The notes under the pieces: generated by a model
What the model was told of the DNA's origin: nothing
Database searches by the model: none
The model's input: the letters and a program-made list of their open reading frames with translations, nothing else
Shown: one piece after another, positions 34,795 through 56,142 of the stretch
Numbering within the stretch: the first letter of the stretch is position 1
Layout: every line of letters begins with the position of its first letter
Assembly (NCBI RefSeq): GCF_001885215.1
Contig: NZ_CP018091.1
Coordinates: 868,001-932,000 of the forward strand
From: Synechococcus sp. SynAce01
GTDB taxonomy: Bacteria > Cyanobacteriota > Cyanobacteriia > PCC-6307 > Cyanobiaceae
Reading direction: 5' to 3'
DNA length: 64,000 bases
Position numbers and translations under genes: made by a program

Positions 34795-36061
34795 TGAGGT
34801 GGTCTGGGTTTTCTGGACAGGCCCCATCGTTAACCTTTGAGGCGGGGCACCGCCCCTGAAAGGGGCTCCTACCGATGAGCAAACGCCGTACCCACAGCCC
34901 AGAATTCAAGTCCAAGGTCGCCATGGAAGCGATCAGTGGCCGCAGGACGCTCCAGGAGATCGCTGCAGACCACGCGGTGCACCCGATCCAGGTGAGCCAA
35001 TGGAAGAAGCAGCTCCTGGAAGGAGCCAGTGAGCTTTTCGCCAAGGGCAAAAAGACTCAAGGCAAAGACGAGAGCCAGGCCAAGGAAGGCGAACTGTTCC
35101 AGCAGATTGGCAAGCTCCAGATGGAACTGGAGTGGCTTAAAAAAAAGTCACAGCTGCTCTGATGCCCGTGAATTGCGAAAGCTGGTCGATCACGACCAAC
35201 GAGAAATCACGATCAGCCGTCAGTGCGAGCTCCTGGGGCTACCCAGATCCACGCTGTACTACAAGCCCATCCCTGTGCCTGAATCCACCCTGGGGATCAT
35301 GGCCAGGATCGATGCGCTGTATTTGGAGGATCCAACCTCTGGAAGCCGTCGGATGGTTCAGTATTTGGCCCGAGAAGGGATCCCGATCAGCCGTGACCGT
35401 GTCCGAAACCTCATGCGGTGCATGGGTTTACGGGCCATCTACCAGAAGCCACGCACCACGGTGCCAGGTGACCCATCGGAGCGCTTTCCCTGCCTGGTGG
35501 ACCTCAAGGAGGTCACGGAAGTGGATCAGGTTTGGGCAACAGATATTACCTATATCCCATTACGGAAGGGCTTCCTCTACCTGGTGGCCGTTGTGGATCT
35601 GTTCTCCCGGAATGTTCTCAGCTGGAAACTTTCCAACAGCCTTGACATGGAATTCTGCTTGGAGGCCTTGGAAATTGCTCTTACCGTTGGGCGAAAGCCA
35701 CAGATCTTCCACTCCGATCAGGGGTGTCAGTTCACCTCCGGTGACTTCGTGGCAAGGCTCAAGACAGAGGAGATCAAGATCAGCTGGTCTGGTAGAGGGC
35801 GCTGCTACGACAACATCCTGGTGGAGAGACTATGGAGGACAGTCAAATATGAGGAGGTGTACCTGCGCGCCTACAGCGATGGCTGGGAAGCTGAAATCAG
35901 CTTGTCCCGATTCCTATGGAGGTACTGCCATGTAAGACCCCATAGCTCATTGGGTGGCAAAACTCCCAATGAGGTCTACAATCAAATTGAACCCTGTCCC
36001 TCCCCGCCCGAGGTTAACGATGTCAGGGGCCAGATCTGTCCAATAAAAGCCATCCACCTCA
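34795..36061 (+). mobile_element. IS3-family insertion sequence, copy 1 (1267 bp)
   Basis: Ends begin TGAGGTGG and finish CCACCTCA; the imperfect inverted repeats continue inward for about 30 bases (including TGGACAG and GCCCC blocks). The element is flanked by a 3-bp direct repeat GGC (34792-34794 and 36062-36064), the usual target duplication length for IS3. It carries orfA and orfB and is the same length as the element at 50703-51969, with identical translated ORFs. Overlapping alternative hairpins (GGGGC/GCCCC/GGGGC at 34844-34866) precede orfA. Confidence 0.93.
34875..35162 (+). CDS. IS3-family transposase OrfA, copy 1
   Basis: 95 residues. A helix-turn-helix (RRTHSPEFKSKVAMEAISGRRTLQEIAADHAVHPIQVSQWKKQLLEGA) binds the IS ends, followed by a leucine-zipper-like heptad stretch (GELFQQIGKLQMELEWLKKKSQLL). 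Near its end it crosses eight consecutive A residues (35139-35146), where the fusion with OrfB must arise. The stop is at 35160. No clear ribosome binding site precedes the ATG. Confidence 0.9.
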   Translation: MSKRRTHSPEFKSKVAMEAISGRRTLQEIAADHAVHPIQVSQWKKQLLEGASELFAKGKKTQGKDESQAKEGELFQQIGKLQMELEWLKKKSQLL

Positions 36062-36090
36062 GGCTTCGATCACCGTGGCATCGCCGTTAA
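35140..36090 (+). CDS. IS3-family transposase OrfB (integrase core), copy 1
   Basis: The catalytic domain of a DDE recombinase. Asp in WATDITYIPL, Asp in FHSDQGCQFTS and Glu in ILVERLWRTVKYEEVY form the triad, with an HTH_21-like region (SGSRRMVQYLAREGIPISRDRVRNLMRCMGL) before. The frame is +1 relative to orfA. No stop codon occurs before the IS end at 36061; translation continues into host DNA for nine more residues and stops at TAA 36088-36090. The start shown is nominal, at the A run; independent initiation is not apparent. Confidence 0.88.
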   Translation, partial: KKSHSCSDARELRKLVDHDQREITISRQCELLGLPRSTLYYKPIPVPESTLGIMARIDALYLEDPTSGSRRMVQYLAREGIPISRDRVRNLMRCMGLRAIYQKPRTTVPGDPSERFPCLVDLKEVTEVDQVWATDITYIPLRKGFLYLVAVVDLFSRNVLSWKLSNSLDMEFCLEALEIALTVGRKPQIFHSDQGCQFTSGDFVARLKTEEIKISWSGRGRCYDNILVERLWRTVKYEEVYLRAYSDGWEAEISLSRFLWRYCHVRPHSSLGGKTPNEVYNQIEPCPSPPEVNDVRGQICPIKAIHLRLRSPWHRR

Positions 36091-49390: not shown

Positions 49391-50689
49391 TCAGCGGCTG
49401 AGGCCAGTGACGGCGAAGAGCAGCACGAAGCCGCCAAGAACCAGCAGTCCCAGCCGCGCCACGGTGAGCAGAGCGGGGCCCAGCCGGCGGTCCGGCGGCA
49501 CCTGGCGGCCCTGGATCACCTGCAGATTCATCCAGCCGAGCAGGGGGGTGGTCACGAACGACACCACCATCGCCAGCTGCACCAAGGTGCCCATCGAGCT
49601 GGCGGAGAAGAGCAGAATCCCGGCGGCAGCAAAGCCATGAAGCCCGATCCAGAGGCTGTGGTCGCTCTGGTTCTGAACGTCGCGGCCCCGGAATCCCCGC
49701 AGCAGCCGCAGCCCGGCCGAAGCCGAACGGGGATAGCCATCCAGGCAGGTGAGGGTGGTGCTGAACATCGTGGTGAAGGCCGCCAGGGCAATCAGGAGAT
49801 AGGCCCACCCCCCCAGGCTGGCGGTATAGAGCTCGATCAGTTGCTGCGCAAAAACGGCACCGGCCGGCGAAAAGCTGCGGCCGGTGCCGTGCATCACCCA
49901 GGCCCCCAGGACCAGGAACAGCACCGCCATCAGCACAGTGGCGCCGTAGCCGATGTTGAAATCGGCCTCCAGCTCCGCTTGGCTGCCTTGATGGCCGGAA
50001 TCCTCGCTGCGCGCAAAGATCCACAGCGATGACCAGGCCGCCAGATCAAGCGGACAGGGCATCCAGCCCATCAGGGCAATCAGGAACGGCAGGGCCGGCA
50101 GGGTCCAGGGGCTGGGGCTGAACATCGCGGCGATCGGAGCCCCGGAGACAGGCCCTTGAAGCAGGGCGGCCAGGGTGGCGGCGGTGGTGCTCAGCACCAG
50201 GATCGCCACCACCAGCTTGCTCAACCGATCCAGGCTGCGGTAGTGCCCCCAGAGCAACAGCAGTAGAGAGAGAACCAGCAGCAGCACGGCCAGGTTGGTG
50301 GCACTCAGCAACGCCCCGATCGAGGCCGGCAGCAAGCTGGTGGCCAGGCTGCCGCTCACCGCTGCCACCGCCACGATGTTGGCCACGCCGGTGGCGGCGG
50401 TGATCAGCAGGAACAGGGGCAGATACCACCGTCCCTGGCGTTGGTAACCCTCCAGCAGGCTCAGTCCGGTGGCGGCGGTGAATCGCGTGCCGACCAACAA
50501 AAAGGGGTACTTGATCAGGTTGATCAGCAGCACCAGCGCCAGCAACCCGAGGCCGTAGCGGGCCCCCGCCTGGGTGGAGGCGACCAGGTGTGAACCACCG
50601 ATCGCGGCGCCGGCCAACAAAATGCCGGGTCCAAGGCTCTGGCGCAGACCAGCCAGGCGGGGGCGCGTCGAAGCGGCGGTAGGGATCAT
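49391..50689 (-). CDS. Nramp-related membrane transporter lacking the DPGN motif
   Basis: About 432 residues and 11 hydrophobic segments from the ATG at 50689 (TTG at 50698 possible). The start GPGILLAGAAIGGSHLVASTQAGARYGLGLL aligns with Nramp TM1, but the metal-binding DPGN is replaced by IGGSH; the TM6 motif MPH is replaced by GWMPCPLDLAAWSSLW. These features match Nramp-related proteins that do not use the classical metal site, so a substrate is not assigned. The IS element ends 13 bases before this ATG, and its orfB stop overlaps the start codon. Confidence 0.8.
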   Translation of the reverse strand: MIPTAASTRPRLAGLRQSLGPGILLAGAAIGGSHLVASTQAGARYGLGLLALVLLINLIKYPFLLVGTRFTAATGLSLLEGYQRQGRWYLPLFLLITAATGVANIVAVAAVSGSLATSLLPASIGALLSATNLAVLLLVLSLLLLLWGHYRSLDRLSKLVVAILVLSTTAATLAALLQGPVSGAPIAAMFSPSPWTLPALPFLIALMGWMPCPLDLAAWSSLWIFARSEDSGHQGSQAELEADFNIGYGATVLMAVLFLVLGAWVMHGTGRSFSPAGAVFAQQLIELYTASLGGWAYLLIALAAFTTMFSTTLTCLDGYPRSASAGLRLLRGFRGRDVQNQSDHSLWIGLHGFAAAGILLFSASSMGTLVQLAMVVSFVTTPLLGWMNLQVIQGRQVPPDRRLGPALLTVARLGLLVLGGFVLLFAVTGLSR

Positions 50690-51624
50690 GGCAGCCAAAG
50701 GCTGAGGTGGATGGCTTTTATTGGACAGATCTGGCCCCTGACATCGTTAACCTCGGGCGGGGAGGGACAGGGTTCAATTTGATTGTAGACCTCATTGGGA
50801 GTTTTGCCACCCAATGAGCTATGGGGTCTTACATGGCAGTACCTCCATAGGAATCGGGACAAGCTGATTTCAGCTTCCCAGCCATCGCTGTAGGCGCGCA
50901 GGTACACCTCCTCATATTTGACTGTCCTCCATAGTCTCTCCACCAGGATGTTGTCGTAGCAGCGCCCTCTACCAGACCAGCTGATCTTGATCTCCTCTGT
51001 CTTGAGCCTTGCCACGAAGTCACCGGAGGTGAACTGACACCCCTGATCGGAGTGGAAGATCTGTGGCTTTCGCCCAACGGTAAGAGCAATTTCCAAGGCC
51101 TCCAAGCAGAATTCCATGTCAAGGCTGTTGGAAAGTTTCCAGCTGAGAACATTCCGGGAGAACAGATCCACAACGGCCACCAGGTAGAGGAAGCCCTTCC
51201 GTAATGGGATATAGGTAATATCTGTTGCCCAAACCTGATCCACTTCCGTGACCTCCTTGAGGTCCACCAGGCAGGGAAAGCGCTCCGATGGGTCACCTGG
51301 CACCGTGGTGCGTGGCTTCTGGTAGATGGCCCGTAAACCCATGCACCGCATGAGGTTTCGGACACGGTCACGGCTGATCGGGATCCCTTCTCGGGCCAAA
51401 TACTGAACCATCCGACGGCTTCCAGAGGTTGGATCCTCCAAATACAGCGCATCGATCCTGGCCATGATCCCCAGGGTGGATTCAGGCACAGGGATGGGCT
51501 TGTAGTACAGCGTGGATCTGGGTAGCCCCAGGAGCTCGCACTGACGGCTGATCGTGATTTCTCGTTGGTCGTGATCGACCAGCTTTCGCAATTCACGGGC
51601 ATCAGAGCAGCTGTGACTTTTTTT
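50686..51624 (-). CDS. IS3-family transposase OrfB, copy 2
   Basis: The same DDE integrase core as copy 1 through KAIHL at the IS end. No stop lies inside the element; translation continues SLWLP and ends at TGA 50688-50686. Those bases overlap the ATG of the Nramp-related gene (ATGA), so the transposase and the transporter become translationally coupled. The start shown is nominal at the A run. Confidence 0.88.
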   Translation of the reverse strand, partial: KKSHSCSDARELRKLVDHDQREITISRQCELLGLPRSTLYYKPIPVPESTLGIMARIDALYLEDPTSGSRRMVQYLAREGIPISRDRVRNLMRCMGLRAIYQKPRTTVPGDPSERFPCLVDLKEVTEVDQVWATDITYIPLRKGFLYLVAVVDLFSRNVLSWKLSNSLDMEFCLEALEIALTVGRKPQIFHSDQGCQFTSGDFVARLKTEEIKISWSGRGRCYDNILVERLWRTVKYEEVYLRAYSDGWEAEISLSRFLWRYCHVRPHSSLGGKTPNEVYNQIEPCPSPPEVNDVRGQICPIKAIHLSLWLP

Positions 51625-51969
51625 TAAGCCACTCCAGTTCCATCTGGAGCTTGCCAATCTGCTGGAACAGTTCGCCTTCCTTGGCCTGGCTCTCGTCTTT
51701 GCCTTGAGTCTTTTTGCCCTTGGCGAAAAGCTCACTGGCTCCTTCCAGGAGCTGCTTCTTCCATTGGCTCACCTGGATCGGGTGCACCGCGTGGTCTGCA
51801 GCGATCTCCTGGAGCGTCCTGCGGCCACTGATCGCTTCCATGGCGACCTTGGACTTGAATTCTGGGCTGTGGGTACGGCGTTTGCTCATCGGTAGGAGCC
51901 CCTTTCAGGGGCGGTGCCCCGCCTCAAAGGTTAACGATGGGGCCTGTCCAGAAAACCCAGACCACCTCA
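50703..51969 (-). mobile_element. IS3-family insertion sequence, copy 2 (1267 bp)
   Basis: Same length, same end sequences and same translated ORFs as the copy at 34795-36061, but on the minus strand. The flanks are GGC on both sides (50700-50702 and 51970-51972), so the 3-bp target duplication is intact. Both copies have AAGGC before the left flank in the plus orientation. It interrupts the leader of the Nramp-related gene. Confidence 0.93.
51602..51889 (-). CDS. IS3-family transposase OrfA, copy 2
   Basis: 95 residues, identical in translation to copy 1. The A8 run is on the minus strand at 51625-51618. Confidence 0.9.
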   Translation of the reverse strand: MSKRRTHSPEFKSKVAMEAISGRRTLQEIAADHAVHPIQVSQWKKQLLEGASELFAKGKKTQGKDESQAKEGELFQQIGKLQMELEWLKKKSQLL

Positions 51970-52102
51970 GGCAGCCATCAGTTTGACCAATCGGCCAGCC
52001 GCCAGACCATCCGCAAAGCACAGAGTTGGCCCCTGCTGGCGGCGCCAATGTGGGTGATGCCGAATCACGATTTGGCCACAGCCATCAAGGCACCACGAAA
52101 TG
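51970..52102. other. Native upstream DNA of the Nramp-like gene, now displaced
   Basis: These bases originally joined the Nramp-like start at 50702 before the IS inserted. They would have contained its promoter and leader. No gene is seen. Confidence 0.5.
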
Positions 52103-52136
52103 AAAAATCCCGGCCATGTACAGACACACAGCCGGG
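52103..52136 (-). terminator. Intrinsic terminator of the sbtA-sbtB unit
   Basis: On the minus strand CCCGGC and GCCGGG form a 6-bp stem around a 16-base loop, followed by ATTTTT. It starts 29 bases after the sbtB stop, in the correct orientation. Confidence 0.65.
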
Positions 52137-52164
52137 AACACAAAACAGCTTGGATCAGATCAGG

Positions 52165-52479
52165 TCAGAACTTGTGATCGCGCAGGGCTTCCACCTGGTA
52201 GATATAAGTGATGATCGAGTAGTCCGCGTAAAACTTGGCTTCGATCTCATGGATGATCTTGTCAGCCAGCTCGCGGGTGCCAGTGAGGACCTCGATTTTC
52301 ACATTAGAGAGAGTGTGCGAGACGATTGGATCTCCCGTGGAGCGCACATTGCGGCTGCCTTCCCCACCAGCTGAATTCACAGTGTACCCGGTGGCACCTG
52401 CCGCTTTGATGAGCTTGATGAGTTTCTTGGAGAGGATTTCCTCCCCAACAATCACCAACTTCCAAACTTGCTGACTCAT
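52165..52479 (-). CDS. sbtB: PII-like regulator of bicarbonate transport
   Basis: 104 residues with a ferredoxin-like PII fold: [39 protein letters not shown], then [50 protein letters not shown]. SbtB proteins bind adenine nucleotides including cAMP and form trimers on SbtA. The short form here ends in DHKF and lacks the C-terminal CGPxGC-type redox motif found in some SbtB. It follows sbtA on the same strand after about 35 bases. Confidence 0.93.
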
Positions 52480-52514: not shown

Positions 52515-53510
52515 TTAACCACCGATCATCTGAGCAATCCCGATGAAGAGCGGAATGCCGATGGCGATCGCCACTGGAGTTCCGATGGCGGTGGAGGCAC
52601 CAATGTAGGCGGAGGGATTCGCCGTGGGAATGCCAGCTCGCAGGGTCGGAGGACCCGAAATATCAGAGCTGGAAGCAGCGATCACAGCCAGCACCACAGC
52701 GCCACCGATGCTGAAGCCGGTGATCTTGTGAATGAGCAGGCCAACACCAAAACCGATGAAACCATGCACCAGCGGTGCGATAAAAGCATAGATGGCAAAC
52801 CATTGGGCCACTTTGCGCAGCTCATTCATGCGCTGTGCAGCCTCCATACCCATGATGATCATGAGAACGGAGAGGAAGCCCCGGAAAAGCAGATCGTAAA
52901 AGCCTTTATAAACAGATTCAGGCCTGGTCAAAATGCCGAGTGCAACGCCAAGGAGCATGGCCGTGACAGCAGAGCTCTGAAGACTTTCTTTGATGATTGG
53001 CCAGATCTCAACATTGTCAGATGCGTCAGCGGATTTACGGCTGGTGTAGATGCTTGCCACCACGATCGCCGTCACCAGCGCCGGAATGTCCATGAACGGA
53101 TAAAGGGCAGCACTCCAGGCCTCAAATGGGATTTTTGACGCTTCCAGCTGGGGCAGAACAGCGGCGAGGGTGGAACCACTCACGGCACCAAACAATCCAC
53201 CTGTTGCTATCGCATCGGTGAATCTGATTCCCGGTAATCGCGCCAAGGTGAATTGGCTGATTAACACGATCAGGATGCCTATCAGCACAGCTCCCAGTGC
53301 CGGGAGAAGGATCTCAGTGAGGTTGGAATTGCGAATGGCGATGCCTGCGCTCAAGCCGATCTTCAAAAGCAAGAAGAAAGTGATGAACTTGTACATGGCA
53401 TCTGGGATCGCCAATTGGCTGCCGAATGAGGCAACGACGATGCCGCCGATCAGAAAACCTAGAGTTGGAGACTGAATCTGCTTAATAAAAAGCTCAAAGA
53501 AGTCGGACAA
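52515..53510 (-). CDS. sbtA: Sodium-dependent bicarbonate transporter
   Basis: 331 residues from a TTG at 53510, chosen because AGAGGA lies six bases upstream and the family starts with DF..FI.QIQSPTLGFLIGG; the ATG at 53591 would add 27 unusual residues. Ten hydrophobic segments with FTDAIATGGLFGAVSGSTLAAVLP and SSDISGPPTLRAGIPTANPSAYIGASTAIGTPVAIAIGIPLF near the end are distinctive of SbtA. It concentrates bicarbonate using the Na+ gradient. Expression of relatives is induced by low CO2; a TTA-N7-TAA site lies at 53723. Confidence 0.94.
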   Translation of the reverse strand: MSDFFELFIKQIQSPTLGFLIGGIVVASFGSQLAIPDAMYKFITFFLLLKIGLSAGIAIRNSNLTEILLPALGAVLIGILIVLISQFTLARLPGIRFTDAIATGGLFGAVSGSTLAAVLPQLEASKIPFEAWSAALYPFMDIPALVTAIVVASIYTSRKSADASDNVEIWPIIKESLQSSAVTAMLLGVALGILTRPESVYKGFYDLLFRGFLSVLMIIMGMEAAQRMNELRKVAQWFAIYAFIAPLVHGFIGFGVGLLIHKITGFSIGGAVVLAVIAASSSDISGPPTLRAGIPTANPSAYIGASTAIGTPVAIAIGIPLFIGIAQMIGG

Positions 53511-53721
53511 TTCAAATCCTCTGGTGTTTTGGAAAATGAGGTTGCTGGGAGAATTAAAGGGGATTGGACCTAATTCGGACCAAGCCTGCAACCAGACTGA
53601 TGTGTTTCAGCCCGTGTGTTCCAGGACACATGCGACTGCTCGAGCTGATGCCATCGCCATAGGCAAGAAAAACCACACGAGGTGATTTTGATGCCTGACA
53701 GGCACACAAGACCCCAAAAAC

Positions 53722-54197: not shown

Positions 54198-54402
54198 ACG
54201 GCGATCTGATCGGCATATTGCGGGGGGAAACCATAACGATTGCCGGCTTCCGTAACGGCTGGGCGTGAAATCTGCCGGTGGCCCAAGCCCTGCCTATGGC
54301 GGCCATCAGATGGCCGAATCGGCCCGGACAGGCCCGGACGGCTCTGGAGCCAGGGAAATCCCAGCGGAGTTTCTAGAGTCGGTGTCCTTGCAGACGCCGT
54401 CG

Positions 54403-56142
54403 ATGACTGTCGCCACCGCTGCACCCCCCCGCCTTTCGCTCCAGTGCGAGGCGATCGGCGCCGATACCACCACGATCCGCTCCCTCGACTGGGACCGCAG
54501 CCGCTTCGACATCGAATTTGGCCTGCGCAACGGCACCACCTACAACGCCTTTCTGGTGCGGGGTGAGCGCACCGCCCTGATCGACACCAGCCACGCCAAA
54601 TTCGCCGACACCTGGCTACCACTGCTCGAAGGGCAGATCGATCCAGCCACGATCGACTACTTGATCGTTTCCCACACCGAGCCCGACCACTCCGGCCTGA
54701 TCGGAGCCGTGCTGGAGCGCAACCCGGAGATTGAGATCGTCGGCTCGAAGGTGGCGATCGCCTACCTGGCCGACCAGGTGCACCGGCCGTTCAAGAGCCG
54801 GGCTGTCAAGAGCGGCGAAGTTCTCGATCTCGGCACCAACCCCAGCAGCGGCGTGGCGCACCGCTTCGAGTTCCTCAGTGCTCCCAACCTGCACTGGCCC
54901 GACACGATCTTCTCCTTCGATCACGGCACGGGCATCCTTTACACCTGCGATGCCTTCGGACTGCACTACTGCTCCGATGCCGTTTTTGATGTCGACCCCG
55001 GTGCCATCGCCCCAGACTTCCGCTTCTATTACGACTGCCTGATGGGCCCGAACGCCCGCAGCGTGTTGCAGGCCCTTAAGCGCATGGACGCCCTGCCTGA
55101 GGTCAGCCTGATCGCCACGGGCCACGGCCCCTTGCTGCGCGATCACCTCAACCTCTGGATCGGCGACTACCGCGACTGGAGCAGCCAGCGCAGTGCCGGC
55201 GAAACCTATGCGGCCGTCTGTTATCTGAGCCAGTACGGCTTCTGTGACCGGCTCAGCCAGGCCCTGGCCCGCGGCATCGGCAAGGCCGACAGCCAGGCCC
55301 AGCTGGTGGACCTGCGCTCCACCGACCCCCAGGAGCTCGCCGCCCTGATCGGCGAGGCCAGCGCCGTGTTGGTGCCCACCTGGCCAGCCAATCCCGATGT
55401 CGAAACCCAGCAGTCGATCGGCACGCTGCTGGCTGCCTTGCACGCCAAGCAGTGGGTGGCCGTCTACGACGCCTACGGCGGCAACGACCTGCCGATCGAC
55501 AGCATCGCCGCCAAGCTGCGCAGCCTGGGCCAAAAAGAAGCCTTCCCGCCGCTGCGGGTCAAAAAGGTGCCGGATGGCAACGACTATCAGCGCTTCGAGG
55601 AAGCCGGCACCGACCTGGGCCAGTTACTTGGCCGCGCCAAGACCATCGCAGCGATGAAGGCGCTCGACAGTGACCTCGACAAGGCGCTCGGGCGACTCAG
55701 CGGCGGCCTCTACATCGTGACGGCCCGCCAGGAGGAGCGCAGCAGCGCCATGGTGGCCAGCTGGGTGAGCCAGGCCAGCTTTGAGCCGCCGGGCCTCTCG
55801 ATCGCCGTAGCCAAAGACCGCGCCATTGAAACCCTGATGCAGGTGGGCGACCGCTTCGTGCTCAATGTGTTGCAGGAGGGTCAATACCAAGACTTGCTGC
55901 GCCATTTCCTGCGCCGCTTCCCGCCCGGTGCCGACCGCTTTGAAGGCGTGGCCACGTTGGAAGGGGCCGCCAGGGGCGGGCCTGTGCTCAGCGACGCCCT
56001 GGCCTTCCTGGGTTGCCAGGTGGTGCAGCGGATGGAAACCCCTGACCACTGGATCATCTATGCGGAGGTGGAGGAGGGCACCGTGGCCGATGCTGAGGGC
56101 AGCACGGCCGTGCACCATCGCAAGGTTGGCAACCACTACTGA
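54403..56142 (+). CDS. flv3: Flavodiiron protein, Flv3 type
   Basis: 579 residues in three domains: metallo-beta-lactamase-like (1-260), flavodoxin-like (about 265-405) and the flavin reductase extension specific to photosynthetic organisms (about 420-579). The diiron ligands H-x-E-x-D-H are intact as HTEPDHSG at residues 91-98, with the later ligands in the FSFDHGTGILYTCDAFGLHYC and ATGHGPLLRDH segments. Flv3 with Flv1 passes electrons downstream of photosystem I to oxygen, protecting in fluctuating light. It is followed by flv1 with a one-base stop/start overlap. Confidence 0.9.
   Translation: MTVATAAPPRLSLQCEAIGADTTTIRSLDWDRSRFDIEFGLRNGTTYNAFLVRGERTALIDTSHAKFADTWLPLLEGQIDPATIDYLIVSHTEPDHSGLIGAVLERNPEIEIVGSKVAIAYLADQVHRPFKSRAVKSGEVLDLGTNPSSGVAHRFEFLSAPNLHWPDTIFSFDHGTGILYTCDAFGLHYCSDAVFDVDPGAIAPDFRFYYDCLMGPNARSVLQALKRMDALPEVSLIATGHGPLLRDHLNLWIGDYRDWSSQRSAGETYAAVCYLSQYGFCDRLSQALARGIGKADSQAQLVDLRSTDPQELAALIGEASAVLVPTWPANPDVETQQSIGTLLAALHAKQWVAVYDAYGGNDLPIDSIAAKLRSLGQKEAFPPLRVKKVPDGNDYQRFEEAGTDLGQLLGRAKTIAAMKALDSDLDKALGRLSGGLYIVTARQEERSSAMVASWVSQASFEPPGLSIAVAKDRAIETLMQVGDRFVLNVLQEGQYQDLLRHFLRRFPPGADRFEGVATLEGAARGGPVLSDALAFLGCQVVQRMETPDHWIIYAEVEEGTVADAEGSTAVHHRKVGNHY

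Follow-up and report, generated by a model that had tools for sequence, protein, structure and literature searches.

A recent IS3-family insertion upstream of an Nramp-like gene: an ATGA junction with the transposase frame that is most likely coincidental

The window analyzed here, a 64,000-nucleotide stretch of DNA from Synechococcus sp. SynAce01, contains a minus-strand locus in which an insertion sequence (IS copy 2) lies between the genes sbtA and sbtB and a gene for an Nramp-like transporter. An identical element (IS copy 1) is found elsewhere in the window. The features referred to below are listed here, with the evidence for them in parentheses.

34795-36061, plus strand: IS copy 1, IS3 family, 1267 bp, identical to copy 2 (target-site duplication GGC)
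49391-50689, minus strand: Nramp-like transporter gene, 432 amino acids (Pfam PF01566; orthologues)
50686-50689, minus strand: ATGA overlap of the orfB stop and the Nramp-like start (sequence; IS-free relatives)
50686-51735, minus strand: orfB open frame (DDE transposase), which exits the IS and stops at TGA 50688-50686
50700-50702: target-site duplication of IS copy 2, GGC on the plus strand (GCC in the IS orientation)
50703-51969, minus strand: IS copy 2, an IS3-family insertion sequence of 1267 bp (identity to copy 1, inverted repeats, 3-bp target-site duplication)
50718-50720, minus strand: the TAA that usually ends orfB in this IS group, read past in copies 1 and 2
50759-50762, minus strand: C4 run whose one extra C, absent from copies 3–5 and from nearly all relatives, shifts the orfB tail
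51602-51889, minus strand: orfA of IS copy 2, 95 amino acids (Pfam HTH_Tnp_1)
51618-51625, minus strand: A8 run (T8 on the plus strand), where orfA changes to the +1 frame into orfB, presumably by slippage
51970-51972: target-site duplication of IS copy 2, other side
51970-51990, minus strand: native leader block TTGGTCAAACTGATGGCTGCC, which adjoins the start codon where relatives lack the IS and is now 1267 bp farther away (alignment; single occurrence in the genome)
52108-52137, minus strand: terminator-like hairpin after sbtB (z -3.2)
52165-52479, minus strand: sbtB-like PII protein gene (PF00543)
52515-53591, minus strand: sbtA bicarbonate transporter gene (PF05982, E 2.5e-87)

We take the gene at 52165-52479 to be sbtB from its position beside sbtA. 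The order sbtA-sbtB-Nramp is intact without the IS in two relatives (L075 and L093), and in a third (L074) another gene intervenes; a literature search found no work linking sbtA, sbtB and Nramp. The Nramp-like protein scores 37 bits against Pfam PF01566, above the cut-off of 29.8, but falls short of the NCBIfam cut-offs for metal transporters, and a sequence search of the PDB gave no match. It reads AAIGGSH where known Nramp metal transporters read DPGN, and its substrate is therefore uncertain. Its relatives found outside the cyanobacteria (L087-L106) are nearly all from Flavobacteria/Bacteroidetes, at ∼36–42% identity, a distribution suggesting transfer. In many relatives (L021, L027, L031, L083, L084, L085) the Nramp-like gene adjoins an oppositely oriented flavodiiron-protein gene, and this conserved neighbor could hint at the function of the transporter. 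In the window, sbtA and sbtB lie between the Nramp-like gene (49391-50689) and a flavodiiron-like gene (54265-56142).

Copies 1 and 2 of the IS match over all 1267 bases, and the genome (one contig, 2.75 Mb) contains two more full-length copies, 98% and 91% identical, plus fragments. Copy 2 is bounded by imperfect inverted repeats, TGAGGTGG...TGGACAG, and four copies are flanked by 3-bp target-site duplications (GGC, GCC and, for the 98% and 91% copies, CAC and TGC), in keeping with the inverted repeats and 3–5 bp duplications expected of the IS3 family. OrfB matches the NCBIfam model NF033516 (transpos_IS3; 254 bits, cut-off 160, E 2.6e-75) and also matches PF00665 (rve, the DDE integrase core), while OrfA matches PF01527 (HTH_Tnp_1, E 1.3e-8) and is the small helix-turn-helix protein expected of this family. 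The element is thus of a common type of bacterial jumping gene. One relative (L012, G000:C1:296238-299336) is a degenerate copy divided in two by ∼1.8 kb of other DNA, which may be a nested insertion.

In copy 2, orfB is read in the +1 frame of orfA, as it is in relatives with intact, separate frames that carry A8G or A9T. Within this picocyanobacterial IS3-type group the relation is found at the A8/A9 run, in the window at 51602-51735 and 35029-35162. In several relatives whose A run is shorter (A8T in L058, L063 and L067, for example), orfA is joined in frame to the start of orfB. Judged by sequence comparison, the pattern of A-run length and fusion would fit transcriptional slippage as in IS1447.

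The end of orfB differs among the copies. The C run near it reads TCCCGCCC in copies 3, 4 and 5 and TCCCCGCCC, one C longer, in copies 1 and 2. We compared 25 relatives, 77–84% identical, found in other genomes of the family. Of the 24 whose tail could be scored, 22 close orfB with a TAA that lies exactly 15 nt inside the IS end, usually as ...VQ-stop. This TAA is still present in copy 2 (50720-50718), out of frame and inside the right inverted repeat; orfB is open in copies 1 and 2 because the one extra C shifts its tail past the in-element stop. The possibility that the group is designed always to borrow a host stop was rejected, given the fixed internal stop in 22 of 24 scored relatives. 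The IS group thus has a stop of its own, copies 1 and 2 being a derived one-base variant. In copy 1 orfB likewise runs out of the IS, to a stop at 36090, so that the open frame is not specific to the site of copy 2. Copy 3 has a different, earlier orfB stop, and orfB of copy 4 is broken by an indel. Although both copies 1 and 2 carry the extra C, an assembly error could account for it. This C run has been expanded independently in the relative L064 (CTCCCCCGCCC), where orfB ends early at a different stop, and the run therefore seems prone to slip.

The right end of copy 2 lies 13 nt upstream of the Nramp-like ATG (50689-50687). The original prediction held that orfB reads through the IS without a stop and terminates at TGA 50688-50686, overlapping the ATG at 50689, and we confirm both coordinates and frame. 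It named as refuting findings a transcription start between the IS and 50689 and a different start codon well inside the gene. We found no promoter-like site in the 13 nt, and the ATG is supported by the IS-free orthologous loci, which share it: ATGATC in L074 (Synechococcus sp. CS-1329), ATGACC in L075 and L076, and ATGCAC in L093. The ATGA motif is therefore found in three of the four IS-free relatives, L093 having ATGC. When the flanks of copy 2 are joined with one target-site duplication, the resulting GGTCAAACTGATGGCTGCCTTTGGCTGCCATGA has the same length and the same start as GGTCAAACTGATGGCTGCCCAGGGCCGCCATGA in L074; the insertion is therefore a clean one, 13 nt upstream of an existing ATGA. 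Accordingly, the proposal that the insertion created a 4-base coupled junction survives for the geometry, which is of a kind that favors termination-reinitiation, but not for the motif: an IS-created ATGA is rejected by its presence in IS-free relatives. The ATGA is host sequence that predates the insertion, and the IS supplied the frame only.

The fate of the leader also differs from what had been proposed, namely that the insertion replaced it. The leader block, TTGRTCAAACTGWTGGCTG as aligned across leaders, begins with TTG in four of five cases (L093 has ATG there) and occurs once in this genome. IS copy 2 lies between the block and the Nramp-like ATG and does separate the gene from its leader, but the leader was displaced upstream by 1267 bp, neither replaced nor deleted. 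Because a terminator-like hairpin follows sbtB, the native promoter is probably within the ∼150 nt that preceded the Nramp-like gene, upstream of the insertion.

The most likely interpretation, to which we assign a probability of about 0.8, is that this is a real and recent IS3-family insertion that parted the gene from its leader, and that the overlap is a coincidence of frame and no selected regulatory device. An IS3-family element recently transposed, in the sense orientation, into the short leader between the sbtAB operon and the Nramp-like gene of a Synechococcus/Cyanobium-type cyanobacterium. The one-C insertion near the end of orfB would already have been in the transposing lineage, or would have been gained at one of the two identical copies. 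By putting the normal in-element stop out of frame, it lets orfB run into whatever flanks the element, and the first in-frame stop at the copy 2 site simply happens to be the TGA within the ancestral ATGA. The Nramp-like gene would probably be cut off from its own leader and expressed via read-through across the IS; read-through or weakened expression is more likely than coupled translation. We infer both that the junction is not under selection and what the insertion does to expression.

A coincidence of this kind is not rare. Of three possible exit frames at the copy 2 site, one gives the exact ATGA overlap. In a simulation that placed the same IS end 3–50 nt upstream of the first ATG of the 52 long ORFs of the window that start with ATG, a stop/start overlap arose in 10.8% of insertions, a crude figure with uncurated ORF starts. 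Given two copies that read out of their ends, one stop/start coincidence is unremarkable. Against coincidence, the extra C may have originated at this locus and then been copied to locus 1, which leaves room for local selection, and an overlap of 4 nt is known to support coupling.

It is quite possible, if at somewhat less than even odds, that the insertion is mainly disruptive and that the gene is silenced or strongly reduced, with its leader and promoter 1.27 kb upstream behind the IS. The severed conserved leader block argues for this, as does our failure to detect the Nramp-like gene in two near-complete genomes of the same genus, which indicates that it is dispensable in the genus. However, the sense orientation permits read-through from the native promoter, and we found no terminator-like site between the right end of the IS and the Nramp-like gene.

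An outward promoter carried by the IS is an unlikely source of Nramp-like expression. Transcription would then start inside the element, for example at GTGGCA-17 nt-TACAAT (50810-50782), a single consensus-like site with 9 of 12 matches ∼90 nt upstream of the ATG. Shuffled sequences, however, yield 0.9 such sites by chance, so that the site is not supported beyond chance, and by eye most other IS copies have different codons in place of the TAC AAT that forms its -10 (VYTE for VYNQ).

We consider it quite unlikely that the junction is functional, with ribosomes that end OrfAB or orfB at the ATGA reinitiating on the Nramp-like gene and expression following transposase translation. The extra C turns a 28-nt gap, from a stop ending at 50718 to the Nramp-like ATG at 50689, into a -4 overlap. 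Where gene pairs have been tested, a separation of ∼20 nt all but abolishes coupling, and a 4-nt stop/start geometry favors termination-reinitiation (PMC10666635); the conversion therefore makes coupled translation physically possible. A Shine-Dalgarno-like sequence was looked for in the orfB tail upstream of the Nramp-like ATG and was not found (best duplex -1.5 kcal/mol), and reinitiation could help such a start. The IS-free relatives, however, also have no clear Shine-Dalgarno sequence and need no coupling. Moreover, orfB is reached only via a +1 frame change in the A8 run, expected in a minority of transcripts or ribosomes (slippage in the +1 direction is ∼16% in IS1447; PMC6211511), and few ribosomes should therefore arrive at the junction. 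Copy 1 has the same out-reading frame with no such junction, and the junction of copy 2 is not conserved. Domesticated expression of the transporter under the IS, as originally suggested, is thus not favored by these comparisons. The fuller scenario, in which a one-base slip gave the element a stopless frame and the host transporter was captured by ATGA coupling, its translation tied to slippage-dependent transposase synthesis, is very unlikely.

If coupling were real, the locus would offer a clean natural case in which a transposon provides a host gene with both transcript and ribosomes. On the favored reading of a frame coincidence, a one-base slip in the IS together with a pre-existing start-codon motif can produce what looks like an operon at the edge of an IS, and such pseudo-operons matter for automated operon calls.

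Copy 2 shares with the IS3 family (NF033516) two overlapping frames with a helix-turn-helix OrfA and a DDE OrfB, 3-bp target-site duplications, terminal TG...CA repeats and a length of ∼1.27 kb, whereas copies 1 and 2 differ from it in having lost the in-element orfB stop. Members of the family commonly, though not universally, have orfB in the -1 frame of orfA and a shift site of the A6G type, whereas orfB of copy 2 is in the +1 frame. Because +1 variants have been reported within the IS3 family (PMC6211511, PMC5009743), we regard this as a subgroup difference that does not exclude the element from the family. The IS1447 group of the same family uses +1 transcriptional slippage in an A9 run and is reported to be enriched in Firmicutes (PMC6211511). 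Copy 2, in a cyanobacterial host, fits that group in the A8/A9 run at the orfA/orfB overlap and in the +1 frame relation, with slippage here presumed. Finally, the junction resembles ATGA termination-reinitiation gene pairs (PMC10666635) in its 4-nt stop/start overlap, but unlike in those pairs, what lies upstream is a newly inserted transposase frame that shares neither function nor conservation with the gene downstream.
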